From the NCBI RefSeq assembly GCF_002848135.1, contig NZ_PKGB01000004.1, positions 1 through 64,000 on the forward strand: a stretch of 64,000 nt of DNA, written 5' to 3'. The notes beneath the pieces were generated by a model, which made no database searches, was not told the DNA's origin, and saw only the letters and a program-made list of their open reading frames with translations. Source of the DNA: Hydrogenovibrio sp. SC-1 (lineage in GTDB: Bacteria > Pseudomonadota > Gammaproteobacteria > Thiomicrospirales > Thiomicrospiraceae). This document shows positions 8,140 to 46,110 of this stretch, in pieces (the first letter of the stretch is position 1; each line of letters begins with the position of its first letter). The translations under genes and the position numbers were made by a program.

Positions 8140-8198
8140 GTTGTCTCCGACTACCTTAACTTACTAATACAAGTAAACTCAAAGGATATTGGAAAAAT

Positions 8199-9257
8199 AT
8201 GATTGCACAAAAATATCAAGCATTATTAGCAGTGATGCAGCAGAATAATGTCTTATATCGTCCCTCGGCATTTTGGGCCGAGGCTTCATTGGAACTGGTT
8301 AAAGAGTTTGAAGCCAATGGCATTGAAAATTTTCGGCGGTTAATGGCGTCACTTTTATTTTTCGTACCGACTTACGGTTTTCCGGGTAATGCCTTATCAG
8401 AGGAAATTGTGCAGCAGCTTGAAACCGCGTTAGAGCAGGTAAATGCTTCTGAAAAACAACAGGAGATTGTGAGTCAGTTCACATCAGGTTATGTGGCGGC
8501 GTTAGCCGATTATCGTGTGTTTATGGCAACGAATGGACCCCGACCATCAATCGAAGGATGTGTGGATCTACGCAGTTTTTCAGAAAGCCAGGTAGGGAAT
8601 CCCGTTGAACAGTTTGAATTTGACAATCATTTCTATAGTCGTTCGGCTTTAAATTATTTGTTAGGACTGTCTTTTTTACAGCAATATGTTCCATTACATA
8701 CGATAAATACGGTACTGGAAATTGGCGGTGGATTCGGTACGTTGGGTGAAATTGTGTTAAAAACTTTCAATAGTGCACAGTATATTGATGTGGATATTCC
8801 ACCAACGTCAATGGTTTCAGAGTATTATTTGCAAAAGGTCTTTGGCGCAGACCAAGTGAGTACCTATGAAGATACAGCCACATTAACCGATATTGCCGTC
8901 AATTCGCTTCAAAAAGCTAGTGTGTTAAATTCCTGGCAAATTGAGCAGTTGTCAGGGGATGTTGATTTATTCGTCAATTTCATTTCATTTCAAGAAATGG
9001 AACCTGAGATTGTTCAGAACTATTTAGCGCATGTCAAACGCTTAAATGCAAAATGGTTGTTATTACGCAATATGCGCGAAGGTAAACAATTACGATCTCA
9101 ACATCGTTTTGGTGTTGAGACACCAATCTTAACGGAAGATTATATCCGTATGGTCGGTGGCTATGAACTAGTCGACAGTAATGTTATGCCATTTGGTTAT
9201 AAAACGGTCGATCATTTTCATTCTGAGATTCTGCTTTTTAAACGGTGTGACGCTTAA
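8199..9257 (+). CDS. Putative sugar O-methyltransferase
   Basis: The 352-residue protein has a central SAM-binding motif VLEIGGGFGTLGEI at about residues 172-185 and an acidic post-motif (IDVDIPPT). This matches the family annotated as putative sugar O-methyltransferases in surface-glycan loci. The N-terminal 150 residues are helical and family-specific, with no membrane segment. It lies between pseF and pseG, so methylation of a Pse derivative or of a glycan on flagellin is a reasonable inference. The exact acceptor cannot be read from sequence. A ribosome site (AAAGGATATTGGA) precedes the ATG. Confidence 0.75.
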   Translation: MIAQKYQALLAVMQQNNVLYRPSAFWAEASLELVKEFEANGIENFRRLMASLLFFVPTYGFPGNALSEEIVQQLETALEQVNASEKQQEIVSQFTSGYVAALADYRVFMATNGPRPSIEGCVDLRSFSESQVGNPVEQFEFDNHFYSRSALNYLLGLSFLQQYVPLHTINTVLEIGGGFGTLGEIVLKTFNSAQYIDVDIPPTSMVSEYYLQKVFGADQVSTYEDTATLTDIAVNSLQKASVLNSWQIEQLSGDVDLFVNFISFQEMEPEIVQNYLAHVKRLNAKWLLLRNMREGKQLRSQHRFGVETPILTEDYIRMVGGYELVDSNVMPFGYKTVDHFHSEILLFKRCDA

Positions 9258-9637
9258 CCTTTAGTATTTTAAAGATTGTTTCAGAGTTTTTTCAACCCTT
9301 TTGCAGAGGGCTGATTGAAGCTATTATCTGGCTTAAGCACTTTTACAGAAAAGAAAACTGGTCCTCTTAGTACACTATCAATCCGTCGAACTCTTAGCTT
9401 TCAATTTTTTTACCAACTTTTATTAATCCTTTGCAAAGGAAGTTACAGAAATTAAAGAATCATTGAGTTCATCAGTGACGTTTAATGAGACTTGTATATA
9501 CAGGCAATGATTATTTACGAATAATTCCGATTATTAAGCATATGATTGAATGCTTCTAACAATAATGTGTAAAACCAAATACAGTTTATTGTTGGATTCC
9601 TTTTTCAAAGCATTTCGTTTTAGAGGCGGCTCTGCTA
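9258..9637. other. AT-rich non-coding gap between methyltransferase gene and small ORF
   Basis: About 380 bp with no gene of note. It contains a weak CCCT/AGGG hairpin near 9297 and a perfect 14-bp palindrome at 9427-9440. It may mark an insertion or deletion scar within the Pse locus, since pseF and pseG are otherwise expected to be close. Confidence 0.5.
9427..9440. promoter_or_regulatory. Perfect 14-bp palindrome
   Basis: TCCTTTGCAAAGGA is fully self-complementary and lies in the gap upstream of pseG. It is operator-like in shape. No known binding protein is assigned. Confidence 0.3.
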
Positions 9638-9727
9638 ATGCTATTTAGTAAAAAAGGTTCAGTTGAAGATTGGAAAAAGCCAAAACTGATGTATAAAATG
9701 CTAAAACAAGAAAGGGATATTGAATGA
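9638..9727 (+). CDS. Candidate 29-residue ORF coupled to pseG
   Basis: A short ORF begins with ATG at 9638 and encodes a basic 29-residue peptide starting MLFSKKGSVEDWKKPKL. Its TGA overlaps the pseG ATG as ATGA, the same coupling geometry seen between pseC and pseF. An AGAGG element lies 11 bp before the start, slightly far for a ribosome site. It could be a genuine leader peptide, a remnant of a longer gene, or chance. pseG also has its own good ribosome site (AAAGGG), so coupling is not required. No homology is recognised. Confidence 0.35.
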   Translation: MLFSKKGSVEDWKKPKLMYKMLKQERDIE

Positions 9728-10875
9728 AAGTCGTGTTCCGAACTGATGCTTCAATTCAAATCGGCACAGGGCATGTTATGCGCTGTATGACTTTGGCCAA
9801 AGCATTGTCTGAAAAGGGAGCAGAAGTTCAGTTTATTTGTCGGAACCATATAGGCAATTTAATCGAAAAAATTCAAAACGAAGGCTTTAAAGTTTATACA
9901 CTAAATACCAGCTATGATGAAGTTCTATGTCATTCCGTGCAAGGCGAGTCAATGAAGTCATTACCGTGTGGAGCAGAACAACTTTGTCATTATTTTCAAA
10001 CCAACGAATCTCCAGTTCCCAAGCTCAGTCACTCTGATTGGCTTGGCGCCACACAACAAGAAGATGCAATAGAGTGTCATTCGATATTACAACAAATACA
10101 TCCAGATTGGTTAGTTGTAGATCATTATTCAATTGATGCATCATGGCAGAAAATCTTAAAGAATTTATATCGAAAACTCATGGTCATTGATGATTTAGGA
10201 GATAGACGACATATTTCTGATTTATTACTGGATCAGAATTATGGTTCAACTGTCGATAAGTACCAAAAGCTTGTGCCCAAAAACTGTAAAATCCTAGCAG
10301 GAGCACAATATGCATTGTTAAGACCAGAGTTTGCAAAGTGGCGACATTTCAGCTTGGAACGTAGAAAAAATAATCAGAAGGTTAAAGGTATTTTAATCAC
10401 GCTAGGAGGAGTCGATTCAGGTAACATTACTGGGCAAGTTCTTCAACAATTGTCTAAAGCAGAGTTGGACTCCGGTATTGAAGTAACAATTGTTATGGGG
10501 TTAACTTCACCTCACTTAAAAGCCATCGAACAACAAGCTGAAAGCCTGAATTTCAAAACCAGTGTTAGAATCAATGTCAACAATATAGCTGAGCTTATGG
10601 CTAATGCAGACTTGGCTATTGGCGCAGCTGGGGCTACAACTTGGGAGCGTTGTTGTCTAGGCGTTCCTACTATTCAATTGGTAATAGCTGAAAATCAGCG
10701 CCAGGTGGCCGAACGTTTGGCGATTGACGGTGTTGTTAAGTCGATTTATCAACCGAAAGAACTGGTTTCGTTGTTATCGACCGCACTGGATTGGATGCCT
10801 TCGTTAGGCCAGATAGCAAGTGGTGTTTGTGATGGACATGGTTGTGATCGCGTGATAAATACAATGTGCTCGTAA
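9724..10875 (+). CDS. pseG: UDP-2,4-diacetamido-2,4,6-trideoxy-beta-L-altropyranose hydrolase PseG
   Basis: PseG removes UDP from the nucleotide sugar in the fourth pseudaminic acid step. The 383-residue protein has the GT-B-like fold. The N-terminal GTGHVMRC motif holds the catalytic His at residue 17. DWLVVDHYSIDASWQ and VIDDLGDR lie mid-protein, and GAAGATTWERCCLGVPTI with a following Q-rich segment forms the UDP site. It is longer than the ~275-residue Campylobacter enzyme, with an extra Cys-containing stretch around residues 58-100 before the WLGATQQEDA segment. There is no fused acetyltransferase (PseH) domain at the C-terminus. The ribosome site AAAGGG and an overlapping small ORF precede it. 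Confidence 0.92.
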   Translation: MKVVFRTDASIQIGTGHVMRCMTLAKALSEKGAEVQFICRNHIGNLIEKIQNEGFKVYTLNTSYDEVLCHSVQGESMKSLPCGAEQLCHYFQTNESPVPKLSHSDWLGATQQEDAIECHSILQQIHPDWLVVDHYSIDASWQKILKNLYRKLMVIDDLGDRRHISDLLLDQNYGSTVDKYQKLVPKNCKILAGAQYALLRPEFAKWRHFSLERRKNNQKVKGILITLGGVDSGNITGQVLQQLSKAELDSGIEVTIVMGLTSPHLKAIEQQAESLNFKTSVRINVNNIAELMANADLAIGAAGATTWERCCLGVPTIQLVIAENQRQVAERLAIDGVVKSIYQPKELVSLLSTALDWMPSLGQIASGVCDGHGCDRVINTMCS

Positions 10876-11232
10876 AATCAAGTATACATCTAAAGTGATT
10901 CAGAGCTTTGAATGAGAGCAGAAACGAATAGCTAATATGATAGTGATTAGTGAATTTACGTAATAAAATGAAGCGCGTTCTGAGTGAGAATTAACGATTT
11001 TCTAACTGATCTAAGGAAATCTTACCTACGAAAATTTTGCACAAGTAAAATTAAATTGTTTATGGGTAAAGGATATAACCTGTATTGAAATTGTGAATGT
11101 TTTTTATTTGTAATCAAGGCTTGTTATTGTGATATGAGAGAATGTAGGCTGATATTTCTTTTTCATTTTTTTAGCGGAATGAAGTGGTACAGAATAATTG
11201 GAAAAGATAAGTAGTTTGCGCTGAATAAAGTA

Positions 11233-11262
11233 TTGTTGGAATGTATTTATGTGTTTTATAAT
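11233..11262 (+). promoter_or_regulatory. Candidate sigma-70 promoter for the methyltransferase-pseI unit
   Basis: A perfect TATAAT (11257-11262) is preceded at 18 bp by TTGTTG (11233-11238), which keeps the TTG of the -35 consensus. Initiation near 11269 would give a leader of about 90 nt containing the dyad at 11309-11328. Confidence 0.4.
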
Positions 11263-11308
11263 CGTAAAAATTGGCAATAAATATTGGGTTATATTCAATC
11301 CAATAGAG

Positions 11309-11328
11309 TATGCAAAATCATTTGCATA
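11309..11328. promoter_or_regulatory. 8-bp inverted repeat in the leader
   Basis: TATGCAAA-ATCA-TTTGCATA is a perfect dyad 32 bp upstream of the ATG at 11361. It could act as an operator or as an RNA hairpin near the ribosome site. Confidence 0.4.
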
Positions 11329-11360
11329 GCGTGCCAAGAATTTGGGAGGGAAGATTAATA

Positions 11361-12104
11361 ATGAGTATTAATGTATTAGGTGGGTCAACGACCGAAGAAA
11401 AAAATAACAAGACGCACTTGGTAAAAACCTTGCGTAGTAGTGCTATTCCAGATAGCGAATTATTAGATAATTTGGGTTTGTTTTTAACTCGCCAGAGTTT
11501 ATCTCGAATTAATTTTATGCAAGAGCTATATTCTAAAATCATACAAACTCACGGTTCAATTATGGAATTCGGTGTACGTTGGGGGCAAAATTTAGCTTTA
11601 TTTTCCGCATTGCGAGGCATTCATGAGCCGTTTAACTATAATCGACAAATTATCGGTTTTGATACCTTTAGTGGTTTTACTTCGGTGGATGAAAAAGATG
11701 GCGAGTCAGTAAAAGCAGGCGATTACGGGGTCAGTGATAATTGGAAACAAACACTCGAGAGTATTCTAACTTTTCATGAGAATAATTCACCGATTGCGCA
11801 CAAAAAGAAAGTCCACCTAGTAGAAGGTGACGCGACTCAAACATTACCTGATTATTTAAATTGTCATCCAGAAACCATTGTTGCTCTAGCATATTTTGAT
11901 TTTGATATATATCAGCCGACTAAAGTTTGTTTAGAGGCTCTATTACCACATTTAACCAAAGGTTCGGTTGTCGCATTCGATGAGTTAAATTGTGCTGAAT
12001 TTCCAGGAGAGACATTAGCAGTTAAAGAAGTCTTGGGGTTGTCTCGTTATGCTATTAAACGCTCGCAACATAGTCCGCTGACATCTTATATTATTATTGA
12101 TTAA
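11361..12104 (+). CDS. TylF/macrocin-type SAM-dependent methyltransferase
   Basis: The 247-residue protein resembles the TylF-type O-methyltransferases. Visible are the IMEFGVRWGQNLALFSAL SAM motif at about residues 68-85, a FDTFSGF segment, VHLVEGDATQTLPDYL, and the metal-site type AYFDFDIYQPTKVCLEALLPHLTKGSVVAFDEL. The ATG at 11361 is chosen because GGGAGGG lies ten bases upstream. An ATG at 11310 would place that ribosome site inside the gene. It starts a run of genes ending with pseI. A role in methylating a glycan is inferred from context. Base composition turns clearly AT-rich from here on. Confidence 0.75.
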   Translation: MSINVLGGSTTEEKNNKTHLVKTLRSSAIPDSELLDNLGLFLTRQSLSRINFMQELYSKIIQTHGSIMEFGVRWGQNLALFSALRGIHEPFNYNRQIIGFDTFSGFTSVDEKDGESVKAGDYGVSDNWKQTLESILTFHENNSPIAHKKKVHLVEGDATQTLPDYLNCHPETIVALAYFDFDIYQPTKVCLEALLPHLTKGSVVAFDELNCAEFPGETLAVKEVLGLSRYAIKRSQHSPLTSYIIID

Positions 12105-12125
12105 TTATTAAAAGAAGGTGTGAAT

Positions 12126-13001
12126 ATGGGTTTGACATACCAAACAGAATTGGGGTTTTATACGCTTTGTGATAAGCCTACGCAAGCAGAGCTAGATGAA
12201 TATTATGCGCAGAAATATTTTCAACAACTGAAAAGTAAAACCTATTCTGCTAGCTATAGCGATCAAGAGTTAAATTTATTTGAACAAAAATTAGAACAGC
12301 GCTATGCAGCCATTTGTGAGAAACGAGATACAAAGACATATGAGCGTTTTCTAGATGTTGGTTGTGGTGAAGGTTTTGCTTTAAATTTTTTTGAACAGCG
12401 CGGATATCAGGTTAAAGGCTTAGATTATAGCAGTGCTGGTATTAAGCAACATCACCCAAAACTACTAGATAAGTTGGTCGAAGGTGATGTTTTTAAGTCA
12501 TTACAAAATGAGCTAGAGTTAAAAAATAAATATGAAATAGTTTGGCTGCAGAATGTCTTGGAACATGTTTTAGAGCCAGTTGATTTGTTAGAGGATTTAA
12601 AGGGATTGCTATCAAAAAATGGCGTATTAGTTATAACTGTACCTAATGACTTCTCAGAGTTACAAACATATGCCTTAAATAATAGTTATGTAGATAGCGA
12701 GTATTGGGTGGCTATACCAGATCATATCAGTTACTTTAATACATTGAATATTAATGAAGTAATTGAAAAAACGGGTTGGAAAATGCTCGATAAACTAGCT
12801 GATTTCCCTATAGATTGGTTCATATTTAATAACCACTCAAATTATATAAAAAATAAATCTGTTGGAAAAGAAGGGCATTTTGCACGTTTAACTATTGAAA
12901 ATTTAATTTCAAAAAACGGCAGTGATAAAGCAAATGCTTTTTATCGAAGTTTAGCTGATTTAGGAATGGGTAGGAATACAACCGTTATTGTAGGTTTGTA
13001 A
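12126..13001 (+). CDS. Class I SAM-dependent methyltransferase
   Basis: The 291-residue protein has motif I FLDVGCGEGFALNFFEQRGY around residues 77-96, an acidic end to strand beta2 (GLDYSS), and WLQNVLEHVLEPVDLLEDL plus LLSKNGVLVITVPNDFSE, the pattern of Methyltransf_11/23 enzymes. It begins with ELGFYTLCDKPTQAELDEYYAQKYF, a segment seen in methyltransferases of surface-sugar loci. The ATG at 12126 has AAGAAGG seven bases upstream. The GTG at 12120 would be too close to it. It lies 21 bp after the TylF-type gene. The substrate is unknown. Confidence 0.75.
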   Translation: MGLTYQTELGFYTLCDKPTQAELDEYYAQKYFQQLKSKTYSASYSDQELNLFEQKLEQRYAAICEKRDTKTYERFLDVGCGEGFALNFFEQRGYQVKGLDYSSAGIKQHHPKLLDKLVEGDVFKSLQNELELKNKYEIVWLQNVLEHVLEPVDLLEDLKGLLSKNGVLVITVPNDFSELQTYALNNSYVDSEYWVAIPDHISYFNTLNINEVIEKTGWKMLDKLADFPIDWFIFNNHSNYIKNKSVGKEGHFARLTIENLISKNGSDKANAFYRSLADLGMGRNTTVIVGL

Positions 13002-13032
13002 TGTTTTATTAATCAATTTTTGAGGGGGCGGT

Positions 13033-13992
13033 GTGTTAAAAAACAGAAATTTATTAATAACTAGTGTCTCCAAAAAGGTTGGATTAGTTAAAGCATTTAT
13101 TAAAGAGGCAAAAAAAGAAAATATAAAAGTTTTTGGGGCAGATGTTACTAAAGATGCTGTTGCCTTGTATTTTTGTGATAACTTTTTTATTTTACCGCAT
13201 AGAAACGATGCTGATTTTTTATGTGATTTAGTTAGAAACTGTAAAAAGAGAAGAATTAAATTTATTTTGCCTACTAGTGATGGTGATTTAATTTTTTTTG
13301 CAAAAAATAGAACGATATTGAGTGAAAATAATATTGAAGTTTTAATGAGTGGAAACACATCCATTAATATTTGCACATCAAAATTAGCTTTTAATCAACA
13401 CTGCAAGCAGAATGGCCTTCCTATACCTTATAGCTATGATAGCTTAAACTTAGTTAAATACCCGGTAATAATAAAAGAAGAGTTTTCTCAAGCTAGTAAG
13501 GGTGTTTATATTGCAGAGAATAAGGATCAAGCCATTGAAATAATTAAAGTCCTACCTGTTGAAAAGTACTTGATTCAGGAATTTGTTTTAGGGCAAGAAT
13601 ATTCAATTGATGCGTTTTTCGATAATGAAGGATGCGTAAAAGCAGTCTTACCAAGAAGTCGGGATTTGGTTGTTGGTGGTGAATCAGTGATTACAACAAG
13701 TGTTGATTTACCAGAACTGGAGATTCTAGTTAAGGATTTAGGTGAAACTTTAAATCTTTTTGGACATATTGTTGTTCAGGCATTTTTCCATGATGGAGTT
13801 GTTAGCCTTGTAGAAGCTAATCTTAGATTTGGTGGTGCATCAGGTCTTGCTTTTGTCACTGGTGTAAATTCTCCGAAGTGGCTAGTAGAATATATGGTCG
13901 GAAAAAAATCATATTCAGTAAGTGATATTAAGTATAACGTTAAAATGTTTAAATATAGTTCTGAATATATTTTAGGGGCTGATATTGATTAA
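13033..13992 (+). CDS. ATP-grasp family ligase in the Pse locus
   Basis: ATP-grasp enzymes join a carboxylate to an amine or thiol through an acyl-phosphate. The 319-residue protein has an N-terminal Rossmann-like preATP-grasp part (LLITSVSKKVGLVKAFIKEA). A central ATP-grasp follows, with YPVIIKEEFSQASKGVYIAEN, the IQEFVLGQEYSIDAFFD strand and the metal-binding VSLVEANLRFGGASGLAF near residues 258-275. It resembles CarB-like members found in polysaccharide clusters. The start is GTG, well placed after TGAGGGGGCG. It is one of the most AT-rich genes in the window: positions 13261-13320 contain 15 G/C of 60. It overlaps the HAD gene by 8 bp. Amide modification of an amino sugar is an inference. 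Confidence 0.75.
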   Translation: MLKNRNLLITSVSKKVGLVKAFIKEAKKENIKVFGADVTKDAVALYFCDNFFILPHRNDADFLCDLVRNCKKRRIKFILPTSDGDLIFFAKNRTILSENNIEVLMSGNTSINICTSKLAFNQHCKQNGLPIPYSYDSLNLVKYPVIIKEEFSQASKGVYIAENKDQAIEIIKVLPVEKYLIQEFVLGQEYSIDAFFDNEGCVKAVLPRSRDLVVGGESVITTSVDLPELEILVKDLGETLNLFGHIVVQAFFHDGVVSLVEANLRFGGASGLAFVTGVNSPKWLVEYMVGKKSYSVSDIKYNVKMFKYSSEYILGADID

Positions 13993-14677
13993 TGCTGTTA
14001 TTTTTGATTTGGATGATACATTATATTTGGAGTCAGAATATGTGTTGAGTGGTTTCAATGCAGTAGCAGAATATTTGTCTGTTAAATACGGAATAAGCAA
14101 ATATGAAATATATATTTTTTTGAAAAATCAATTTTTAACACATGGTAGAGAGAAAATATTCAATTACCTATACCATTATTTACTAGCTAAAATAATACCT
14201 GATAATGAAGCTGGTTTGGTTGAAGAATTGGTAACTGTTTATAGAAATCATGAGCCAACTATAGTTCTGGAAAAAAATATAGTCACAGGTTTGTTGGAGT
14301 TAAGAAATAACTATGACTTAAAGCTAGGTTTGTTGACTGATGGGTTGCCTTTGATGCAAAAAAAGAAGGTATTGGCCTTAGGTATAGAAGATTATTTTGA
14401 TGAAATCGTATATTCATGGGAGATAGGTTGTCCTAAGCCCCATGTGGATGGTATCAATTACCTGCTTGCTAAGCTTGGAACGACGAGTAAAAACACTATT
14501 ATGGTTGGTGACAACCCGAGTCATGATATTGAGCCAGCAGTAACTTTATCTATGCCGAGTATAAGGGTATTGACAGGTAGGTTTAAGTGCGTAGCTTCTA
14601 ATGCTTGTTATGGAGCTGATGTTGAATTAAGTTCAATGAGTCAAGTTTTTATTGAGATTAAAAAATGCTTAAAATAA
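13985..14677 (+). CDS. HAD-superfamily hydrolase
   Basis: The 230-residue protein has all HAD motifs: FDLDDTLY (nucleophile and acid Asp) at residues 8-15, LLTDG in motif II, KPHVDGINYLL with the motif III lysine, and MVGDNPSHDIEPA in motif IV. An alpha-helical cap lies between motifs I and II. The start is TTG at 13985, preceded by AGGGG six bases upstream inside the ATP-grasp gene, with an 8-bp overlap. It overlaps pseI by 13 bp, so the three genes are tightly coupled. Known Pse chemistry needs no phosphatase, so its substrate is open. It may be a partner of the ATP-grasp enzyme. Confidence 0.75.
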   Translation: MINAVIFDLDDTLYLESEYVLSGFNAVAEYLSVKYGISKYEIYIFLKNQFLTHGREKIFNYLYHYLLAKIIPDNEAGLVEELVTVYRNHEPTIVLEKNIVTGLLELRNNYDLKLGLLTDGLPLMQKKKVLALGIEDYFDEIVYSWEIGCPKPHVDGINYLLAKLGTTSKNTIMVGDNPSHDIEPAVTLSMPSIRVLTGRFKCVASNACYGADVELSSMSQVFIEIKKCLK

Positions 14678-15705
14678 ATGATCGTTTGATTAGCAGTACT
14701 AACCCTCCATATGTTATTGCAGAATTATCAGCAAATCATAATGGTAATATTGAGCGAGCTATTGCTATTATTGATGCCGCTAAGCGTAGTGGGGCTGATG
14801 CAGTCAAATTACAAACTTATCGCCCTGATACTATCACTTTGGATAGTAATGCTCCTGAGTTTATTATCGAAGGAGGTCTTTGGGATGGTAAAAGTTTGTA
14901 CGATCTTTATGAATGGGCTCATACACCTTGGGAATGGCATAGGCCTTTATTTGAGTATGCTAGAAAAATTGGTATTACAATTTTTAGTTCTCCTTTTGAT
15001 AATACAGCAGTTGATTTACTTGAGGACTTAAATACACCAGCTTATAAAATCGCAAGTTGCGAAGCCATTGATTTACCATTAATTAAGTATGTGGCTCAAA
15101 CGGGTAAGCCGATGATTATTTCTACCGGCATGGCAAATGCAGAAGAAATTCAAGAAGCTATTGACTCGGCTAGAGAAGGTGGTTGTACTCAATTGGCAAT
15201 TTTACACTGTGTTAGTGGTTACCCCGCACCACCTGAAGATTATAATTTATTAACAATACAAGACATGAAAAATCGTTTCGACTTACCCGTAGGCCTATCT
15301 GATCATACCTTAGATAACACTACAGCAATTACCAGTGTTGCATTAGGTGCCTGTATTATTGAAAAGCACGTTACTCTGGATCGAAATGGCGGAGGTCCAG
15401 ATGATAGCTTTTCACTAGAGGAACCAGAGCTTAATGCTTTATGTACTGATGTTTATACAGCGTGGAAAGCATTAGGACAAGTTGATTATGGGCTAAAATC
15501 TAGCGAGCAAGGAAGTGTTAAGTTTCGTCGTTCCCTATACTTTGTAAATGATATTAAGCCTGGTGAAGTGGTTTGTGCCAAGCATATCAAAAGCATAAGA
15601 CCTGGTTATGGTCTAGCGCCGAAATTTTATGATGATGTGATTGGCAAAGTTGCAAAAATTGAGAGAAAGTCTGGTGACCCAGTAAATATTGAAGCTTTTA
15701 AGTGA
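14665..15705 (+). CDS. pseI: Pseudaminic acid synthase PseI
   Basis: PseI condenses 2,4-diacetamido-2,4,6-trideoxy-L-altrose with phosphoenolpyruvate to give pseudaminic acid. The 346-residue protein has a NeuB-type TIM barrel: VIAELSANHNGNIERA, GADAVKLQTYRPDTITLDS, GGLWDGKSLYDLYEWAHTPWEWH, ISTGMAN, GLSDHT and IIEKHVTLDR. It ends in a C-terminal SAF (antifreeze-like) domain from about residue 285. The LWDGKSLYDLYEWAHTPW stretch is characteristic of PseI rather than sialic or legionaminic acid synthases. It overlaps the HAD gene by 13 bp and ends the AT-rich transcription unit. Confidence 0.93.
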   Translation: MLKINDRLISSTNPPYVIAELSANHNGNIERAIAIIDAAKRSGADAVKLQTYRPDTITLDSNAPEFIIEGGLWDGKSLYDLYEWAHTPWEWHRPLFEYARKIGITIFSSPFDNTAVDLLEDLNTPAYKIASCEAIDLPLIKYVAQTGKPMIISTGMANAEEIQEAIDSAREGGCTQLAILHCVSGYPAPPEDYNLLTIQDMKNRFDLPVGLSDHTLDNTTAITSVALGACIIEKHVTLDRNGGGPDDSFSLEEPELNALCTDVYTAWKALGQVDYGLKSSEQGSVKFRRSLYFVNDIKPGEVVCAKHIKSIRPGYGLAPKFYDDVIGKVAKIERKSGDPVNIEAFK

Positions 15706-16086
15706 TTAGTTTTTGAGAAATATCCTAGATACAAACATTTTCGATATTGCACTTCATGACCGACTGTAATTGCATTAAAAAATTGTTGTACTGTTACATG
15801 AGAGGCGCTTGATAATATTTTGATTTCCCATCCCCATAATTTACCGATACTAGATCGGCTTATGATAGCTACTCTTCTTGATGCCAGTCATTTCGAAAAA
15901 AAATTTAAATAACAATTTCTATGTCGATACTTTCATTATCATTAAAACTTTGGATATTTGGCTAAATTATGATGGGGAATACTAGTATTCGTAACTGAGA
16001 AATAGGTTAATCAGCAGGCAAATAAAAGTGCTCAGTAAAGCTTGATCAGTTTGACGAAATATAAAAAAGATTTAAAGGAATTTGCC
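15706..16086. other. Non-coding gap between pseI and the Maf gene
   Basis: About 380 bp, AT-rich, with no gene seen. The only distinct structure is a 14-bp perfect palindrome at 15977-15990. No good sigma-70, sigma-28 or sigma-54 promoter was found by eye, although the Maf gene probably has its own. Confidence 0.5.
15977..15990. promoter_or_regulatory. Perfect 14-bp palindrome upstream of the Maf gene
   Basis: GAATACTAGTATTC is fully self-complementary and centred about 100 bp before the Maf ATG. It is operator-like, with no assigned regulator. Confidence 0.35.
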
Positions 16087-18576
16087 ATGCAAAAAATGGA
16101 ACATTTGGAGTTAACACAAAATAAATTTGGTGAAAGTTACTTTCCAGAGGTCAATCGACTGTCCTTTGAAAAAAACGCCTCAGATGATGTTTTAACACCT
16201 CATTATGAATCCTTATTAAACGAGGAAGAGGCATTATTTATTGTTGTTGGGTCAGATTCGGGCTTGTTATATCAATATATTCAAGAACATATACGTCACA
16301 AACATAGTCAGTTTGTATTTATTGATTTTGATGAGGTGATTGAGGCGGCCCAGTTGGCAGGTGATGACAAAGAAGTTTGGGAGGGTCAGGTTCGTCTAGT
16401 CAATCAAAACTTTGAGTTTATACGCTTAACCGCCGAATTTAATAGCTATATTATGCGACGTCGGATTCATCTAATTAAGTCCCTCGCTGTGATGGATTCA
16501 GAGCCGAATACGCCTTACGCGGATCTTTGGGAACAGATGGAAGTTAAGTTTGTTAGTTATTTGCGTTCGGAATTTAATGTTCAAAGTAATAAGGTCTTTG
16601 AAGAACAGCGTTTACTCAATGCGGTCGATAACTGGATGCCAGCTGTTGAAATTGAAAAGAGTCTAGAGGGGCGCGAAGCCATTATTTTGGGAGGTGGGCC
16701 GACACTAGATGATGCCATTGATTGGGTGAGAAAAAATCAGGATAAATTGATTGTATTTGCTGCAGCAAGGATTGCAAAACGCCTTGAAAGAGAAGGCATC
16801 TTGGTAGATTTCTTTGTGACAGTTGATCCTTTTCCTTGGAACTTTGATAATTCAAAAGCGGTATTAGGTGCTTCGGACTACAGCATTTTAGCGCATAGCT
16901 TCCATGCCCAGCATCGTTTGTTAAGTCAGTGGAATGGGTTAGCAATTTATATGGGTGAGAAATATGCATGGAGTGATGAGAATGCTAAGACGAACATTGA
17001 CACTCTTGGACCAACGGTGACCAACTCTGCCTTGCATTTAGCCTGTAGCCTGGGGGCAACTCGGGTGTTTTTTTCTGGTGTAGATTTTTGCTATGCAGGC
17101 GGTTTGACGCATGAGTCCAGTAGTGATGAAGCCAAGCATTCCGATACGGTATCTCATTATGGTAAAGCACGCCTATTGGATAATGCGGGTCAATTAACTG
17201 AAACAGGGGATGATTTTTTCTCGGCAAAGCAGGCGATGGAAAATATGATTAGCTATTACTTGTTGCATAAGCCGATCGAGTTTATTAGTTTGGGATTGCA
17301 TTCCGCCAAAATGGACAATGTTGTCTTTATCGACTGTAATGAGGTTGAATTGCATTCAGAGTCCAAACAGGCGTTAATGACCGAAATAAAACTCAATATT
17401 ACGCTGACTTCCCAAGAAAAATTTTCACTGGCTCAAGACACTCAAAAACTGCTGAAAAAGCAACATAACCGTTTTAAAAAATTATATAAGCAGGCTAAAG
17501 AAACGCGTATGTTAGCCAGTAAAATATATGATGCAAAAACAGGTCTGCCAAATGAAAAAAATGCGGTAAAACTTAAAAAATACCGTAAAAAAATTGATTA
17601 TTTAGTTGGCCGAGATGGCGATATGTTAGCCAGTTTTCAATCGGCTTTTTTTGCTGATGTTTTTAAGCCAATTGATGATGAAGGAGCGATGACTGAGGCA
17701 GAAGTGGTGCAACAGCTGGAAGCCTTTTTTGGTGGTGTAGAAAAGGTCAGTGAGCATTTAGTGAGCTTATTAAAGCAAGGATTGGAAAGAGCCGAGCTTC
17801 GTTCAGATGAACTCAATACTCAAAGCTGGCCTTCACAGTGTATTGATCGTTGGCGCAAATGGGATGAATTTGGTCGTGCTCTTCAATGGAAGGCATGGCA
17901 TCCAGTTGAATTACCAGATGCTGAAGAAGCTATTTTGCAAGGTGCGATTCAACAATTCCAATCCGAATATGAAAAAACGGATCATATTTATACTCAGATG
18001 TTACAAAAAAATGTGTCCAATGTATCGGCATTAATGGCACGGGCGAATAATGCATTTGCGCTAAAAAATTGCGAAGAAATTCAAAAATTGATAGAACACG
18101 TTGAAACCCTTGATTCAGCACAAGCGGAACAGAAGGAGAGCTTTTTAACTTTATTAAGAGGAATGGTTGAAGAATTGAATAACGACCCTGTTACTGCATT
18201 TAATCTTTATGAAACCATTTCAGCGCCTGTGTTAAAGCATATGGCATTGAAAAAAATGCTTCCTATTGCTATGGATTTAAAGGATTTTGATGCCGCATTA
18301 ATTGTACTGGAACGTTTATGCGGCATTTCTATTGATTATATGGTGTCCTATGCCGATATGTTGAAATTACTAGGGAATACGGCGGCAGCCATTGAAGTAT
18401 TAAAAATGTACCTAGATAACCAACCTAATCGTTTGTCGGTTAAAAACAAGCTAGCGCAATATTATATTGATGACTCGAATTTTTCTGAAGCTAAGTTGGT
18501 TTTAGAGGGGGTGTTGGCAGAAAATGCCGAAAACCGAACTGCTCAACATTTATTGAACACGATTACTGAGGTTTAA
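16087..18576 (+). CDS. Maf-type flagellin nonulosonic acid glycosyltransferase (DUF115/MptE-like)
   Basis: Motility-associated factor proteins transfer nonulosonic acids to Ser/Thr of flagellin in the cytoplasm. The ATG at 16087 follows AAGGA by seven bases, giving 829 residues. The central MptE-like domain starts at AIILGGGPTLDDA near residue 199 and runs through FFVTVDPFPWNF to LGPTVTNSALHLACSLGATRVFFSGVDFCY near residue 335. This is the family signature and resembles a sialyltransferase-like nucleotide pocket. A helical linker and TPR-like repeats fill the last ~200 residues. The next gene starts at the base after its stop. With PseC, F, G and I upstream, CMP-Pse is the likely donor. Confidence 0.88.
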   Translation: MQKMEHLELTQNKFGESYFPEVNRLSFEKNASDDVLTPHYESLLNEEEALFIVVGSDSGLLYQYIQEHIRHKHSQFVFIDFDEVIEAAQLAGDDKEVWEGQVRLVNQNFEFIRLTAEFNSYIMRRRIHLIKSLAVMDSEPNTPYADLWEQMEVKFVSYLRSEFNVQSNKVFEEQRLLNAVDNWMPAVEIEKSLEGREAIILGGGPTLDDAIDWVRKNQDKLIVFAAARIAKRLEREGILVDFFVTVDPFPWNFDNSKAVLGASDYSILAHSFHAQHRLLSQWNGLAIYMGEKYAWSDENAKTNIDTLGPTVTNSALHLACSLGATRVFFSGVDFCYAGGLTHESSSDEAKHSDTVSHYGKARLLDNAGQLTETGDDFFSAKQAMENMISYYLLHKPIEFISLGLHSAKMDNVVFIDCNEVELHSESKQALMTEIKLNITLTSQEKFSLAQDTQKLLKKQHNRFKKLYKQAKETRMLASKIYDAKTGLPNEKNAVKLKKYRKKIDYLVGRDGDMLASFQSAFFADVFKPIDDEGAMTEAEVVQQLEAFFGGVEKVSEHLVSLLKQGLERAELRSDELNTQSWPSQCIDRWRKWDEFGRALQWKAWHPVELPDAEEAILQGAIQQFQSEYEKTDHIYTQMLQKNVSNVSALMARANNAFALKNCEEIQKLIEHVETLDSAQAEQKESFLTLLRGMVEELNNDPVTAFNLYETISAPVLKHMALKKMLPIAMDLKDFDAALIVLERLCGISIDYMVSYADMLKLLGNTAAAIEVLKMYLDNQPNRLSVKNKLAQYYIDDSNFSEAKLVLEGVLAENAENRTAQHLLNTITEV

Positions 18577-19509
18577 ATGACTATTGGTTTAAAACTTGAA
18601 TCTGTTGATTGTGTGTGGGACAAGGGTGCTCATAATGCGTTCACAGATCTAATTTTGTTTGATGGATACTGGTACTGCGCCTTTAGACAAGCACAACACC
18701 ATATGTCATTGGATGGTCAGATTGTAATTCTATGCCGTCAAAATGACCAGGCCTGGGTAAAATCTGCAGAAATAAGTTGGGCAGGAGGAGATTTACGTGA
18801 TCCTAAGTTTGTGGTCACACCACAAGGGCAATTAGTGCTGATGGCCGGTGTCCGATGGGCTGTGCCAACCTCTCCAAGTTCAGTGCTTTGTTCAGTGACC
18901 TGGCAGCTTAAAAAGGGCGCCGTATCGGATCCTTTTGTCACTGATCAAGATGAAGGTACTTGGCGTTGGAGTGGCAGTGCTAATCCAAACCATATTTTTA
19001 GTATTGGTTATGCGGGTAAAGATATGGATGGGTGTTTGTATCTTTCAGAAGACGGAAAATATTGGCAGCCCCATCTCAAACCGTTCTTTCCAAATCCTGA
19101 TTGTTTTAGTAATGAAGCGTCTTTAGTTTTTGCGCCGGATGCGACTGGCTACTGTTTACTGAGACGGGATGGTGAAGAGTGTCCAGGCCTGTTCGGTCAA
19201 GCCAAACCGCCTTACCAAGTTTGGCAATGGCAACCTTTATCGGTGAGAATTGGTGGGCCGAAACTAATTCAATTAAGCTCCGGAGAGTTGATTGCGGCTT
19301 TTCGTGTATTTGAGGAAAAACAACCGAAGGTGATGATTTATGAAATCGAAACCGAATCGGCACGACTTAACCATTTAATCACCTTGCCATCGGAAGGCGA
19401 TTGTAGCTACCCAGGCCTGGTTGAAAAAGATGAACACCTCTGGGTCAGTTATTATTCTTCTCATGAAGGCAAGGCTGCGATTTACTTAGCAAAATTGTCG
19501 AGAACTTGA
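18577..19509 (+). CDS. Sialidase-like beta-propeller protein coupled to the Maf gene
   Basis: The 310-residue product has no signal peptide or membrane segment. Repeated beta-strand blocks with aromatic cores give the look of a sialidase/BNR-type propeller. Examples are DLILFDGYWYCAFRQ, GDLRDPKFVVTPQGQLVLMAGV, YLSEDGKYWQPHLKPF (an Asp-box variant) and GELIAAFRVFEE. The DLRDPKF and FSNEASLVF elements recall the catalytic blade order of exo-sialidase folds, but catalysis is unproven. Its ATG directly follows the Maf stop, with GAGG inside the Maf end as ribosome site. That makes a function on glycosylated flagellin or on free nonulosonic acid plausible. It also ends convergently 33 bp from the EAL/HDOD gene. 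It holds two palindrome copies and one 9/10 variant. Confidence 0.6.
   Translation: MTIGLKLESVDCVWDKGAHNAFTDLILFDGYWYCAFRQAQHHMSLDGQIVILCRQNDQAWVKSAEISWAGGDLRDPKFVVTPQGQLVLMAGVRWAVPTSPSSVLCSVTWQLKKGAVSDPFVTDQDEGTWRWSGSANPNHIFSIGYAGKDMDGCLYLSEDGKYWQPHLKPFFPNPDCFSNEASLVFAPDATGYCLLRRDGEECPGLFGQAKPPYQVWQWQPLSVRIGGPKLIQLSSGELIAAFRVFEEKQPKVMIYEIETESARLNHLITLPSEGDCSYPGLVEKDEHLWVSYYSSHEGKAAIYLAKLSRT
18747..18756. repeat. Iterated palindrome CCAGGCCTGG, copy 3
   Basis: Perfect copy within the extended match AAATGACCAGGCCTGG, shared with copies at 27701 and 58755. It encodes Gln-Ala-Trp in the propeller gene. Confidence 0.9.
19411..19420. repeat. Iterated palindrome CCAGGCCTGG, copy 4
   Basis: Perfect copy in the propeller gene, encoding Pro-Gly-Leu. 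A 9/10 variant ending in T lies at 19183-19192 in the same gene. An A-tract (GAAAAAG) follows, which on the other strand is a T-tract before the core. Confidence 0.9.
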
Positions 19510-22775: not shown

Positions 22776-23321
22776 TTAATCAACCAGCCAGTGCCCGACA
22801 TAGGAGAAGATGCCAATCATAATGCCTGTGACAAACTGAGCATGGACGAGATAGGAAAACTGTTTTAATTGGCGGGGAGAAAAGCGCCAGCGTAAGAAAA
22901 ACCCAAAAAGTCCTTGCCAAATTAATAATCCCAAAACGACTTGAAATAATAGTATTTCGAGATGCCAACCCACCAAGGCAATATGTAACAAGATGACAGC
23001 TAAGGTTGCGATGCCAACATAAGCATGGGTTTTGTTTAATGGAATCAGCACCGTGCGAATAAGCGAGTTGGAGAGGTCGTTAATAGAGCCTGGAATCAGT
23101 CTTTGGGCAAAGCTACCTTTTGCGGACATGAGTTTTAATAGGGTTCGAGCATAAATAAACACTAATAACCAAAGCGCCACTTCTCCTATTTCTTCACCGA
23201 CTTCATTTAAAAAAGTTTCAGGATGATCAGGGTGTGAATATCCTTGCATTGTCCAATAATAGCCAATGGCAATTAAAAAGGTGATAAAGGTGTAAACGAC
23301 AAGTTTATGAAGCGATGACAT
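22776..23321 (-). CDS. Five-helix membrane protein, possible b-haem protein
   Basis: This 181-residue protein was not recognised. It has about five hydrophobic helices (residues ~8-25, 47-66, 97-118, 121-143 and 154-176). His residues lie in or at the ends of helices (THAY, LLHIALVGWH, YLVHAQF, YVGHW), a spacing that could ligate b-type haem as in cytochrome b561 or ferric-reductase-like proteins. That is an inference from pattern only. Its start overlaps the end of the haem-sensing GGDEF/EAL gene by 17 bp, so the two are co-translated and probably act together. A signal-output or haem-reducing partner is possible. Confidence 0.6.
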   Translation of the reverse strand: MSSLHKLVVYTFITFLIAIGYYWTMQGYSHPDHPETFLNEVGEEIGEVALWLLVFIYARTLLKLMSAKGSFAQRLIPGSINDLSNSLIRTVLIPLNKTHAYVGIATLAVILLHIALVGWHLEILLFQVVLGLLIWQGLFGFFLRWRFSPRQLKQFSYLVHAQFVTGIMIGIFSYVGHWLVD

Positions 23322-25758
23322 GGGTATTCTTTAATTGCGCTTCAAATTCTATCTGAGGTTGCGGTTTACCAAAATAATAACCTTGGTAGTTTTGGCAGCC
23401 CATTCGAGCCAAAGTTTGTTGGTGTTCACTGGTTTCAACCCCTTCGGCAATAACACTCAAATTTAAACTATCGGATAAGGCAATAATGGTTTGGGCAATG
23501 GCCTTATCATTTTCATCAACCAGTAGGTCACGAATAAACCCTTGATCGATTTTTAGTTGATCTAACGGAAGTCGTTTTAAATAGGTCAACGAAGAATAAC
23601 CCGTGCCGAAATCATCTAACGAGAAGCTAACGCCTTTGGCTTTTAAAGCGGTCATTTTGCTAATGGCCTCATCTACCGATGAAAGAAACAGGCTTTCGGT
23701 TAACTCCAGTTTTAAGTGGTGGCTGAATTCAGGTTCAAGTAACTCGCTTACTTGAGACTCGAACTCAGCAAGGTGGAATTGTTTTGCGCTGACATTGACG
23801 GCAAGCGTTAAGTGATTTAAATCAGGATTACTTGACCATTGTTTTAGAATGTCACAAGCTTGGGTGAGTACCCAATGACCAATAGGAACAATCAGCCCCG
23901 TTTCTTCAGCTAAAGGGATAAAGCTGATAGGGGAGATTAGACCCTTTTCGGGGTGTCGCCAACGAATAAGTGCTTCCGCGCCAATAATTTTTGCTTGTGA
24001 ATTCACTTGCGGTTGTAAGAACAGTTCAAATTCTTGGCGATTAATGGCTTGTCTTAAAGCGCTTTCAAGCTCGGTTCGGGCACTTAGCAAACTTTGCATT
24101 TCCGGATCAAAGAAACGTAGGTTATTTCGTCCATTCTCTTTGGCTTGATACATGGCTAGTTCGGCATGTTTAAAGACTTCTTCTTGAGTGTTTGGACCGC
24201 CATTAAACAAGGTGATCCCTAAACTACAACTGGTTTGGTATTCATGTTCGCCAATATAAAAGGCTTGCTGAATCAAGCGGAGTAGCTTTCGCCCAAACTT
24301 TTCGGCGAGTTCCAGTGCGGAAGCTTGGGTATGATTGAGCATCGATATTAAGACGACAAATTCATCTCCACCAAATCGGCCTAAGGTGGCATCTTCTGGC
24401 AAAATAGTATGAATACGTTCCGCAAGTAGCTTTAATAAAGCATCGCCCACTTCATAGCCTTGGGTGTCGTTGAGTTGTTTGAAATTATCTAAATCAATTA
24501 AAATTAACGCGCCAATAGTTCCTTGGGATTTGCAGCTATCGATCGCATTGGTCAATTGCGTTTGCATCAGTCGCCGGTTAGGTAGTTGAGTTAACACATC
24601 ATATTGTGCTAAATATTCGGCTTCAGATTTGGCTTCTTTGAACTCAGTAATGTCCAGACAATGACCAATAAATCCTGAAAACTGGCCGCTACTATCATAG
24701 TGTGGACTGGCTTCTTCCAATATTGAGCGTATTTGTCCATCATGGCGCTTCATGCGATAAACCAAACTAAACTTTTCGTGTTTGCTATAGGCTTGGGAAA
24801 GGGTTTGCTGGTAAAAACTTCGATCTTCGTTGTCGATATTTGAGGGTTTGTCTTGGGCAAGGGCTTGTTCAAGCGATAGGTCAACAAATTCTAACCAAGG
24901 CTGGTTAAAGAAGGTGTAGCGCCTTGAAGCATCTGCTAACCAAATCATGACTTGACCGTTATTGGTAACAGACCGATAGAGCGCTTCATTTTCTAATAAA
25001 GCTTTTTCTTGCCGGTCATGTTCAGATTTGAGCTTCGATTCTCTACGCCAACCAAAAGTAAGCCCCATGACACCGATAATCCATACTGCAAGATGAGACA
25101 GTTGCATTTCAAATTTACGCTGGGTTTCTCGCTCTAAAAAAGGAGCCATTGGCACAAAAGTACTGATGCCACCACGGATTTGCCCCACTTGATAACCTTG
25201 GTGAGCATGGCACTTCATACAGGTCTTTTCAACCATTAGTGGCCGAATCAAGCGCATATACGGTTGACCCTGTATTAAGCTAATTTCTTGAATGGGTTCT
25301 GCATTTTGTTCAAATTGTTTTAGAGCCGTGATTTCCCAGGCATCAGCTTTATTGTGTGGGTTTAACAAATTTAAACTGGTGAGGTGGGTTTTAATGCCAT
25401 ATTCATCGCCAAATTGCGATTGCATATCTCTTAACATATAGGCAGGGTTGACTAGGGTTAATTTTTTACCACTGGTGGTAACCACATCCCGTTCAGGGAT
25501 ATCAAGGTAGGGGTTGGGTGGGGTCTTATCTGTCGGTGGGACATAGACGCCGCCGTGAGATGCCCCCCATTTTCTAAAGCTAACGTCCTTATTGACCGTC
25601 GCTAGAGCTGCAGAGCTAGCAGCTTGCCAAGTAGCATGCTCTAAACCATGGAGATTATAAAACCAAGACCCTAGAATCAGACCGCTCCAAAGCGCCACAA
25701 TGAGGCTATATTTTTTGACTAAGGATCTAGGCAAGCGACCTTCAATTTGCCAGTGCAT
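23305..25758 (-). CDS. Haem-sensing GGDEF/EAL protein (Tll0287-like, PAS, GGDEF, EAL)
   Basis: This membrane protein makes and/or breaks c-di-GMP in response to a haem-bound signal. The ATG at 25758 has AAAGGA six bases upstream, giving 817 residues. In order: a membrane helix (~17-36); a periplasmic DUF3365/Tll0287-like domain with one c-type haem site CMKCH near residues 180-184; a second helix (~220-237); a PAS domain with its PAC tail (~260-385); GGDEF with the intact motif RFGGDEF; and EAL with intact EALIRWRHPEKG and DDFGTGYSSLTYLKRLP. Both catalytic motifs look intact. It is co-transcribed with the five-helix membrane protein downstream. The ligand may be redox state, NO or CO; it cannot be read here. 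Confidence 0.88.
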   Translation of the reverse strand: MHWQIEGRLPRSLVKKYSLIVALWSGLILGSWFYNLHGLEHATWQAASSAALATVNKDVSFRKWGASHGGVYVPPTDKTPPNPYLDIPERDVVTTSGKKLTLVNPAYMLRDMQSQFGDEYGIKTHLTSLNLLNPHNKADAWEITALKQFEQNAEPIQEISLIQGQPYMRLIRPLMVEKTCMKCHAHQGYQVGQIRGGISTFVPMAPFLERETQRKFEMQLSHLAVWIIGVMGLTFGWRRESKLKSEHDRQEKALLENEALYRSVTNNGQVMIWLADASRRYTFFNQPWLEFVDLSLEQALAQDKPSNIDNEDRSFYQQTLSQAYSKHEKFSLVYRMKRHDGQIRSILEEASPHYDSSGQFSGFIGHCLDITEFKEAKSEAEYLAQYDVLTQLPNRRLMQTQLTNAIDSCKSQGTIGALILIDLDNFKQLNDTQGYEVGDALLKLLAERIHTILPEDATLGRFGGDEFVVLISMLNHTQASALELAEKFGRKLLRLIQQAFYIGEHEYQTSCSLGITLFNGGPNTQEEVFKHAELAMYQAKENGRNNLRFFDPEMQSLLSARTELESALRQAINRQEFELFLQPQVNSQAKIIGAEALIRWRHPEKGLISPISFIPLAEETGLIVPIGHWVLTQACDILKQWSSNPDLNHLTLAVNVSAKQFHLAEFESQVSELLEPEFSHHLKLELTESLFLSSVDEAISKMTALKAKGVSFSLDDFGTGYSSLTYLKRLPLDQLKIDQGFIRDLLVDENDKAIAQTIIALSDSLNLSVIAEGVETSEHQQTLARMGCQNYQGYYFGKPQPQIEFEAQLKNTHVIAS

Positions 25759-25835
25759 ACCAATTCCTTTCAAGCGCTGCTCTGTTGGCAGTTGCATTGA
25801 TAATATCTAACATTGATATGGGGTATCGGTAAGGG

Positions 25836-43431: not shown

Positions 43432-43464
43432 TGCCCAAGCCCACCAGGCCTGGGCATTTTTTTT
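43432..43464 (+). terminator. Intrinsic terminator built on a CCAGGCCTGG copy
   Basis: TGCCCA pairs with TGGGCA and an inner GCC with GGC around a 5-nt loop, followed by T8. The right half of the stem is the iterated palindrome at 43444-43453. It ends ppiD transcription, just before the stop of the convergent kinase-Rieske gene. Confidence 0.8.
43444..43453. repeat. Iterated palindrome CCAGGCCTGG, copy 7
   Basis: Perfect copy inside the ppiD terminator. On the minus strand it reads AAAATGC followed by the core, close to the AAAATGA flank of three other copies. Confidence 0.9.
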
Positions 43465-44668
43465 ACTCTGCGAGGTAAATATCCCCTTTAGCGTCAACTT
43501 TGATGGCAATCGGTGTTAATTCATCATTTAGGCAAGGCCCCTCAACGCATATCCCTTCTTCTATCGTAAAATAAGCATCGTGTACAGAGCACTTCATGGT
43601 TTTATCAAAAGGGTTGATGTCAATCTTATAAGCCTCATCAAGTGGCACGTCTTGATGTGGGCAGTTATTCGCATAGGCCTTAACGGAATCTTGATATTGA
43701 ACTAAAATAATTGAGTGGGTCAAAGCTTCGCAAGGAACAACAAGCGCTTTAGCATTATTCACTTGTTTGAGATTGGCAAGAGGTCTTTTTGAAGGCGGTG
43801 TTGATAATAAATTATCAAACCCTTGTTGTTGGCACTTGCGTGCCGCTAATGCACTGGCAGAGCGAACGGCTTCATCTAATGGTTGTCGTCGAATCAGCGC
43901 ATCAATGAGTCCGGCATTAAATGTATCTCCAGCCCCTAAGGTATCAATTGTGTGTTCTAACTGAAGGGCTGGTTGATGTTGGATTTTTCCATCGGCTGCT
44001 CGAAACCAAGCGCCTTCTGTGCCCCAAGTACAGATTAATTGGCTGTTTGGTGCCAGTGTCTGTACATGTTTCAATAAGGACTCAGCCGTTTCATAACCTG
44101 TCTGTTGAGCATAATGATGAGAAAAAATCAGGACATTCGCTAACGGAAACAAGGCTTCAATCCCTTCACGTGCCTTTTCAACTTCAATGGAAATTGGTTG
44201 ATGGGTCAAAAAAGTACGTGCGATATTGAGCATGCCTGATAGATTTTCAATATTTCGTCCTTCAAAGTGAAGCCAATCATATTGTTCAATTTCAACTTTT
44301 GCAAAATAATCAAAACTCAGTTCTTCTAACGATCGAAAATGGGTAATGGTACGACTTCCCGTTTGATTGCTCTGCAATACATAAGAGGTCGGGGTTTGGC
44401 CTTTAATAAAACGTTGAATGTGCTGAGCATCAATTTTTCTCTGTTTGAGACCCTCAACCAATTGTTTTGCCGCTGTATCTGCAGCAAGACTCGCCATAAT
44501 ACTGCTTTCATGTCCTAGTTGTTGCAATACGTAAAGGCTATTGCAAACATTGCCACCCACCTCATATCGCCTAGATTCCGCTCGCATCTCTTCATCTTCT
44601 AACGGGTAATGTGCGGTTTGTAAGATAATGTCTAATACGACATTGCCGATGCCAAGAATTTTTGCCAT
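43463..44668 (-). CDS. PfkB-family sugar kinase fused to a Rieske [2Fe-2S] domain
   Basis: One continuous frame encodes two unrelated domains. Residues 1-~295 are a ribokinase/ketohexokinase-like PfkB kinase: MAKILGIGNVVLD, YEVGGNVCNSLYVLQQLG, WLHFEGRN, and the catalytic DTLGAGDTFNAGL with the base Asp. Residues ~310-401 are a NirD-like Rieske domain with CPH and, 21 residues on, CSVH, the four cluster ligands, then FTIEEGICVEGPC. The ATG at 44668 has AGGAT six bases upstream. The ATG at 44734 would add 22 unsupported residues. There is no signal peptide, so both domains are cytoplasmic. The substrate is unknown. A redox-gated kinase is a possible reading. Confidence 0.82.
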   Translation of the reverse strand: MAKILGIGNVVLDIILQTAHYPLEDEEMRAESRRYEVGGNVCNSLYVLQQLGHESSIMASLAADTAAKQLVEGLKQRKIDAQHIQRFIKGQTPTSYVLQSNQTGSRTITHFRSLEELSFDYFAKVEIEQYDWLHFEGRNIENLSGMLNIARTFLTHQPISIEVEKAREGIEALFPLANVLIFSHHYAQQTGYETAESLLKHVQTLAPNSQLICTWGTEGAWFRAADGKIQHQPALQLEHTIDTLGAGDTFNAGLIDALIRRQPLDEAVRSASALAARKCQQQGFDNLLSTPPSKRPLANLKQVNNAKALVVPCEALTHSIILVQYQDSVKAYANNCPHQDVPLDEAYKIDINPFDKTMKCSVHDAYFTIEEGICVEGPCLNDELTPIAIKVDAKGDIYLAE

Positions 44669-45369: not shown

Positions 45370-46110
45370 ATGACTGAAAAATATTCAAGCTTTCAAGCCA
45401 GTTGTGCAAATTGTGGCCTTAAAGGGATTTGTTTTGCACAAGGGTTGCATGATTCTGAAATGCAGGTGTTAGATGAGCTTGTTGATCGTACTCCTTGTAC
45501 ATTAAAGGGAGAATTATTATATTCAGCAGGAGATCCGTTCACTAAACTGTATGCTATTCGTGCAGGGGGTGTTAAAGTTTTTTCATGCTCAGACACGGGT
45601 GAAGAAATTATTCATGGATTCTACCTTCCTGGCGATATCATTGGTTTGGAATCAATGGCGTTTGAGCATCATCAGTATAGTGCGGTTGCACTAGATACAA
45701 CTTCAGTGTGTGGACTGCCTTATCAGCGTTTGGCGGCATTGGGGGCGAAAATTTCAAACTTGAATATTCAGCTTTTTAATTTAATGAGTTACGAAATTGT
45801 ATCCAGCCGGCAACACGCTAGGCTTTTGACTCAAAAATCGGCAGAACAGCGACTGGCTGAATTTCTATGGAATATGTCTCAAAAATTTCAGTCTAGAGGG
45901 TATGAGCATTTGCAATTTAGGTTAAATGTCCTTCACCGAGAAGTCGCCAGCTTTCTGAATTTAACACCAGAAACCATTTCACGTATTTTAGGAAAATTTC
46001 ACCAAGCGCAGATATTAACTTGGAAGAGAAAAGAAGTGACTATTCATCAAGAGCGGCTATTGAAAGCTTGTGCCACTGGCCAAGAAACGCAAGCGTGCTC
46101 TGGACATTAG
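45370..46110 (+). CDS. fnr: FNR-type oxygen-sensing transcription regulator
   Basis: FNR switches gene expression to low-oxygen life when its [4Fe-4S] cluster is intact. The 246-residue protein has the N-terminal cysteines C12, C15 and C21 (CANCGLKGIC) and the fourth ligand near C114 (SVCGLPY), matching the FNR ligand set. The cAMP-binding-like fold follows (YSAGDPFTKLYAIRAGGVKVF, GFYLPGDIIGLE). The C-terminal helix-turn-helix NLTPETISRILGKF has the Glu, Ser and Arg that read TTGAT half-sites. It stands alone between the long regulatory gap and pal. Confidence 0.93.
   Translation: MTEKYSSFQASCANCGLKGICFAQGLHDSEMQVLDELVDRTPCTLKGELLYSAGDPFTKLYAIRAGGVKVFSCSDTGEEIIHGFYLPGDIIGLESMAFEHHQYSAVALDTTSVCGLPYQRLAALGAKISNLNIQLFNLMSYEIVSSRQHARLLTQKSAEQRLAEFLWNMSQKFQSRGYEHLQFRLNVLHREVASFLNLTPETISRILGKFHQAQILTWKRKEVTIHQERLLKACATGQETQACSGH

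Follow-up and report, generated by a model that had tools for sequence, protein, structure and literature searches.

Ketohexokinase (KHK, EC 2.7.1.3), described in animals as the forms KHK-A and KHK-C, is a sugar kinase of the PfkB fold. The substrate contacts of the KHK-A fructose pocket have been mapped by crystallography (PMC2651755). Crystallography and mutation together place D15, N42, N45, E139, R141, K174 and D258 in this pocket (PMC2651755, PMC11332825), and alanine at D15, N42 or N45 leaves the enzyme inactive (PMC11332825). Other PfkB sugar kinases, such as the sulfofructose kinase YihV of E. coli, have the same fold.

The soluble ferredoxins of aromatic-ring oxygenases (carbazole dioxygenase ferredoxin, BphA3, HcaC) have a single Rieske domain that carries its ligands in CxH...CxxH boxes. 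In Rieske proteins of the bc1 type, a Ser and a Tyr after the second box raise the potential; low-potential ferredoxins have Ala and Phe at those positions. A related Rieske fold is found in NirD, the small subunit of assimilatory nitrite reductase, which in E. coli is an accessory subunit without its cluster.

Both families belong to the textbooks; a sugar kinase joined to a Rieske cluster is described nowhere in the literature that we searched. Among the open-access papers searched, none pairs a PfkB kinase, a ketohexokinase or a sugar kinase with a Rieske protein (an absence that is not proof), and those on ketohexokinase in Gammaproteobacteria or the Calvin cycle, or on the host genera and Rieske proteins, gave nothing on the pairing. 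An earlier note on this DNA, which knew of no described pathway for such a fusion, agrees with this. The kinase-Rieske enzyme of CO2-fixing sulfur bacteria presented here is apparently undescribed.

The window, a stretch of 64,000 nucleotides from Hydrogenovibrio sp. SC-1, carries the fusion gene as one uninterrupted frame, as had been noted, and we place this frame on the minus strand: 401 residues without a stop, from MAKILGIGN to DIYLAE. On the plus strand the translation of the same interval is riddled with stops, which rules that reading out. In alignments, homologues from the order begin at this same Met. Missing from the earlier note are the strand, the presence of the fusion throughout the order, its occurrence as a gene pair elsewhere and the link with RuBisCO. 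Modelled whole with AlphaFold, as a monomer, the protein reaches a mean pLDDT of 94.8 and a pTM of 0.77, with a dip in confidence at residues 281-300. Features of the locus are collected in Table 1.

Table 1. Coordinates in the window of the fusion gene, its domains and key residues, and adjoining features. Identities are mean pairwise values within the order.
Feature	Position	Strand	Evidence or remark
Kinase-Rieske fusion gene, 401 aa	43463..44668	-	ATG start at 44668; stop codon 43465-43463
KHK-type PfkB kinase domain, residues 1-287 (predicted)	43808..44668	-	Pfam, human KHK match, Foldseek; 61% identity
D13 (human KHK D15), substrate contact	44630..44632	-	invariant, 80/80
N40 and N43 (human KHK N42 and N45), substrate contacts	44540..44551	-	80/80 and 79/80
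GAGD motif with catalytic base D248 (human KHK D258)	43925..43936	-	80/80
Linker, variable, residues 288-305	43754..43807	-	39% identity
Rieske [2Fe-2S] domain, residues 306-401	43466..43753	-	Pfam; domain model; 65% identity
Rieske ligand box 1, C336-P-H338	43655..43663	-	44/44 fused proteins
Rieske ligand box 2, C360-S-V-H363, then A365 and F367	43580..43591	-	44/44 fused proteins; A and F columns invariant in subfamily
Extra cysteine pair C374-x4-C379 (GxCxxGPC)	43532..43549	-	44/44 fused proteins; also invariant in aligned separate Rieske genes
Terminator-like hairpin and T run	43439..43455	+	between convergent ppiD-like gene and fusion gene
CRP/FNR-type regulator, N-terminal Cys cluster	45370..46110	+	divergent neighbour of fusion gene

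The gene is solitary: a ppiD-like gene converges on it, and the CRP/FNR-type gene is transcribed divergently. Two terminator-like hairpins were found where about 1.8 are expected in shuffles; the one between the convergent genes is suitably positioned. The CRP/FNR-type gene neighbours the fusion in most of the examined genomes from the order and is at most its putative regulator. FNR control was dropped as an explanation, the intergenic region upstream of the fusion holding no FNR-like box at up to one mismatch. Within the order, the flanks of the fusion are ppiD or rlmB-rnr, the CRP/FNR-type gene and pal; these are housekeeping neighbours and thus uninformative on its function. Elsewhere, at 6287-19509, the window holds a flagellin-glycosylation or nonulosonate-type island with aminotransferase, cytidylyltransferase, PseG-like and NeuB/PseI-like genes, in which an ATP-grasp gene (13033-13992) overlaps a HAD phosphatase gene (13985-14677) and a MptE-like/MAF-type protein is encoded at 16042-18576. 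On the minus strand at 23305-25797, a Tll0287-like sensor domain is followed by PAS, GGDEF and EAL domains; a small ferric-reductase-like membrane protein (22776-23321, minus strand) adjoins this gene.

The evidence from sequence and modelling that the kinase half is a ketohexokinase-type PfkB kinase, as the earlier note had read it, is strong. Pfam PfkB matches residues 1-287 with an E-value of 4.9e-36 (125 bits against a curated cut-off of 25.8), and the GAGD motif and catalytic Asp of the PfkB/ribokinase superfamily are in place. Human ketohexokinase is the closest solved structure by sequence (E 3.2e-53) and also the top PDB match of the AlphaFold model in Foldseek (E 5e-34, TM 0.92 of target). 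A profile of the kinase family matches animal KHK at E 1e-93; YihV, the next best family both for this profile and by structure, is matched at 5e-33 and is about 25% identical. The predicted kinase resembles KHK in fold, length and all tested pocket and catalytic residues; it differs in being bacterial, about 36% identical by structural alignment and fused to, or gene-paired with, a Rieske protein. D13, N40, N43, R106, E136, R138, K165 and D248, equivalent to D15, N42, N45, R108, E139, R141, K174 and D258 of human KHK, are invariant or present in 79 of 80 aligned kinases, the sole substitution being one at the N45 position. Since these residues are conserved and mapped in KHK-A, an ATP-dependent ketose-1-kinase is the best prediction of the activity, with a preferred ketose that is not readable from sequence. 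A specificity for phosphorylated sugars, as in PFK, had been considered for the invariant R112 and H110 and was set aside, since both positions are occupied by identical residues in animal KHK-A.

The C-terminal half belongs to a separate subfamily of soluble Rieske ferredoxins, marked by an additional CxxxxC pair, and is its only member found in the genome of the window. Pfam Rieske matches residues 298-381 above its curated cut-off (E 3.3e-9), and both boxes lie in a Rieske fold by model and alignment, the cluster itself being predicted. Modelled alone, the domain reaches a pLDDT of 94.3 and a pTM of 0.87. Its six Cys/His positions are invariant in 44/44 fused proteins; the four ligands are likewise unchanged in all aligned separate Rieske genes. 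The four intact ligands reported earlier are thus located, together with the 21-residue span between H338 and C360, which recurs in the subfamily among relatives and so is no oddity of the fusion. The label NirD-like, also given then, holds only loosely. The fold is related, and 11/20 aligned domains match the NirD model weakly; the domain of the window gives no match to that model at E 0.001, retains all cluster ligands, has a kinase for partner and adjoins no nitrite reductase gene. Its nearest structures are the soluble ferredoxins of aromatic-ring oxygenases, from which it differs in its kinase link, its 21-residue spacing and its extra invariant cysteines. By analogy, the Ala and Phe in place of the bc1-type Ser and Tyr suggest a low potential. 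As the KHK pocket residues and the Rieske ligands are practically invariant, both halves appear to be kept functional.

The fusion is present in 63/63 genomes of the host's order and is a single open frame in 61 of them. The other two have one break each, at differing sites: near residues 365-375 in G021 and near residues 75-80 in G035. Such a distribution rules out chance or a sequencing error joining two frames, the latter named in the earlier note as grounds for refutation. Within the order, the Rieske domain matches the kinase in degree of conservation (65% and 61% identity), which the linker (39%) does not. The closest named records come from a Hydrogenovibrio sp. MAG and a Piscirickettsiaceae MAG.

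We then consider a class-wide sample of 369 gammaproteobacterial genomes, in which the kinase was called at E <=1e-20. It occurs in 102 genomes, a Rieske gene of the subfamily (profile A1) in 143, and both together in 60; at threshold, 42 of the kinase-bearing genomes contain no subfamily Rieske gene, and in 83 genomes that gene occurs but the kinase does not. Linked Rieske genes were scored by profile search, which found cases that a motif-and-distance rule had missed. Among 98 kinase genomes outside the order, the Rieske gene lies directly downstream on the same strand in 30 and directly upstream in 1; 5 more, from 3 families, have further kinase-Rieske fusions, and in 62 the kinase has no linked Rieske gene. 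Half of the downstream pairs (15/30) show an exact 4-base overlap of the kinase stop with the likely Rieske start, which suggests translational coupling; most of the rest are separated by distances between -14 and +5. A phylum-wide sample added one kinase genome only, also of the same class, and plasmid and phage collections gave distant kinase matches, none over 80% of the query.

Mapped onto a tree built from 118 kinases, the fused state requires 4 changes, and branches with good support force at least 2 of these: fusion or its reverse has thus happened more than once. The Rieske-domain tree (113 columns) is poorly resolved, with linked and unlinked copies intermixed. Separate genes in relatives had been named in the earlier note as grounds for refuting the fusion. 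They do occur, in 31 genomes, but as tight, often overlapping pairs beside further fusions, and so strengthen the functional link. The overlapping pairs and the repeated change of state are classic gene-fusion evidence that the kinase and the Rieske protein act together. Neither depends fully on the other, as the genomes with one and not the other attest, and the 83 genomes without a kinase imply other partners or functions for the Rieske gene.

The kinase is strongly associated with RuBisCO. The RuBisCO large subunit, defined by a strict set (E <1e-40) of PF00016, a family that may take in RuBisCO-like proteins, occurs in 94/102 genomes with the kinase and in 82/267 without it (odds ratio 26); 8 kinase genomes have none. 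Across the sample's 182 family codes, the figures are 52/55 kinase families and 34/127 others. For the Rieske gene alone the association is far weaker (odds ratio 2.3). Common descent is only partly corrected for in these statistics.

The explanation that we favour, tentatively and short of calling it probable, is a ketose-1-kinase of Calvin-cycle gammaproteobacteria with a dedicated Rieske partner that couples the kinase to redox state. The KHK-type kinase would work in central carbon metabolism, where free ketoses (fructose, xylulose, ribulose, sedoheptulose) may arise by unwanted dephosphorylation of cycle intermediates. It would recapture them, at the expense of ATP, as ketose-1-phosphates, which an aldolase could return to the triose pool. 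The Rieske domain would be a low-potential [2Fe-2S] regulatory subunit that senses redox state and ties kinase activity to it. That the pairing links sugar phosphorylation to the cellular redox state in some manner is probable. The narrower proposal, that a Rieske [2Fe-2S] switch, fused to or gene-paired with a close KHK relative, matches the salvage of stray ketoses in these bacteria to the reductant supplied, is decidedly unlikely in so specific a form. The favoured explanation has to contend with the many kinases that have no adjoining Rieske gene, or no subfamily Rieske gene at all, and are therefore independent of one.

Among alternatives to redox regulation, the main rival is electron transfer to a partner. 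The Rieske domain would then be an ordinary ferredoxin feeding a reductase or oxygenase that acts on the same sugar or its product, with the kinase fused for channelling between consecutive steps. The nearness in structure to oxygenase ferredoxins, the Ala and Phe shared with low-potential ferredoxins and the many Rieske genes without a kinase, as might be expected of a free electron carrier, are all consistent with it. Yet Rieske oxygenase and ferredoxin reductase genes are absent from the neighbourhood in the window and do not recur beside the pair or the lone Rieske gene. The neighbours of 40 lone Rieske genes revealed no consistent enzyme partner, a reductase-like cluster being near a few only. 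We regard this rival as rather unlikely, if worth keeping in view.

The domain could instead stabilise or localise the kinase, its redox chemistry unused, in the way that NirD serves nitrite reductase. Precedent exists in accessory Rieske-fold subunits that have no cluster, and many kinases (62/98) have no adjoining Rieske gene. A purely structural domain would, however, tend to lose its ligands, and here the four ligands and the extra Cys pair are invariant in fused proteins and aligned separate partners alike; this makes the proposal improbable.

A larger regulatory unit, comprising the kinase, the Rieske protein and a large third protein, is more improbable again. This protein, of about 1,300-1,700 residues where complete, has cNMP-binding, rhodanese, coiled-coil and C-terminal FGE-sulfatase regions; we found no description of it. 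It stands upstream of the kinase, mostly directly, at 19/98 loci, and more often at linked (14/36) than at unlinked ones (5/62). It also lies directly 5' of the lone Rieske gene in several kinase-free genomes. Examples of either arrangement are L066, L104, L108, L116, L150 and L168, among others. Common neighbours may, however, come partly from shared ancestry, and the genome of the window has no such protein, only a single rhodanese-only match, so it is accessory rather than required. Kinases unlinked to a Rieske gene often have a small membrane protein with a zinc ribbon on their upstream side and a protein with pentapeptide repeats on the downstream side (L074, L085, L086, L087, L089, L106 and others).

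Least probable is a fructokinase of sucrose turnover, serving an osmolyte or storage sugar: sucrose-synthase/SPS-family genes are indeed commoner with the kinase (60/102 against 32/267 genomes), but the RuBisCO link persists outside their carriers (38/42 against 55/235), the fusion is kept in all order genomes although 15/40 have no SPS-family gene at E 1e-5, and a sucrose cluster at another place in the window's genome (L002, contig C33; sucrose-phosphatase-like and amylosucrase-like genes, an SPS-family match nearby) includes its own PfkB fructokinase, a separate gene free of a Rieske domain that matches the fusion kinase weakly (E 3.5e-9). The fusion kinase, which is not sited with sps/spp genes, is thus no sucrose fructokinase in this order.

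Given that the pair persists as overlapping genes or was fused anew elsewhere, we predict a step linking ketose phosphorylation to redox state, testable directly in culturable autotrophs. Through its link with RuBisCO the kinase becomes a candidate for a missing component of Calvin-cycle metabolism in bacteria, and the same association indicates in which bacteria close relatives of animal ketohexokinase are to be found. A redox-gated kinase, if true, would be an iron-sulfur counterpart to the control that thioredoxin exerts over the plant Calvin cycle.
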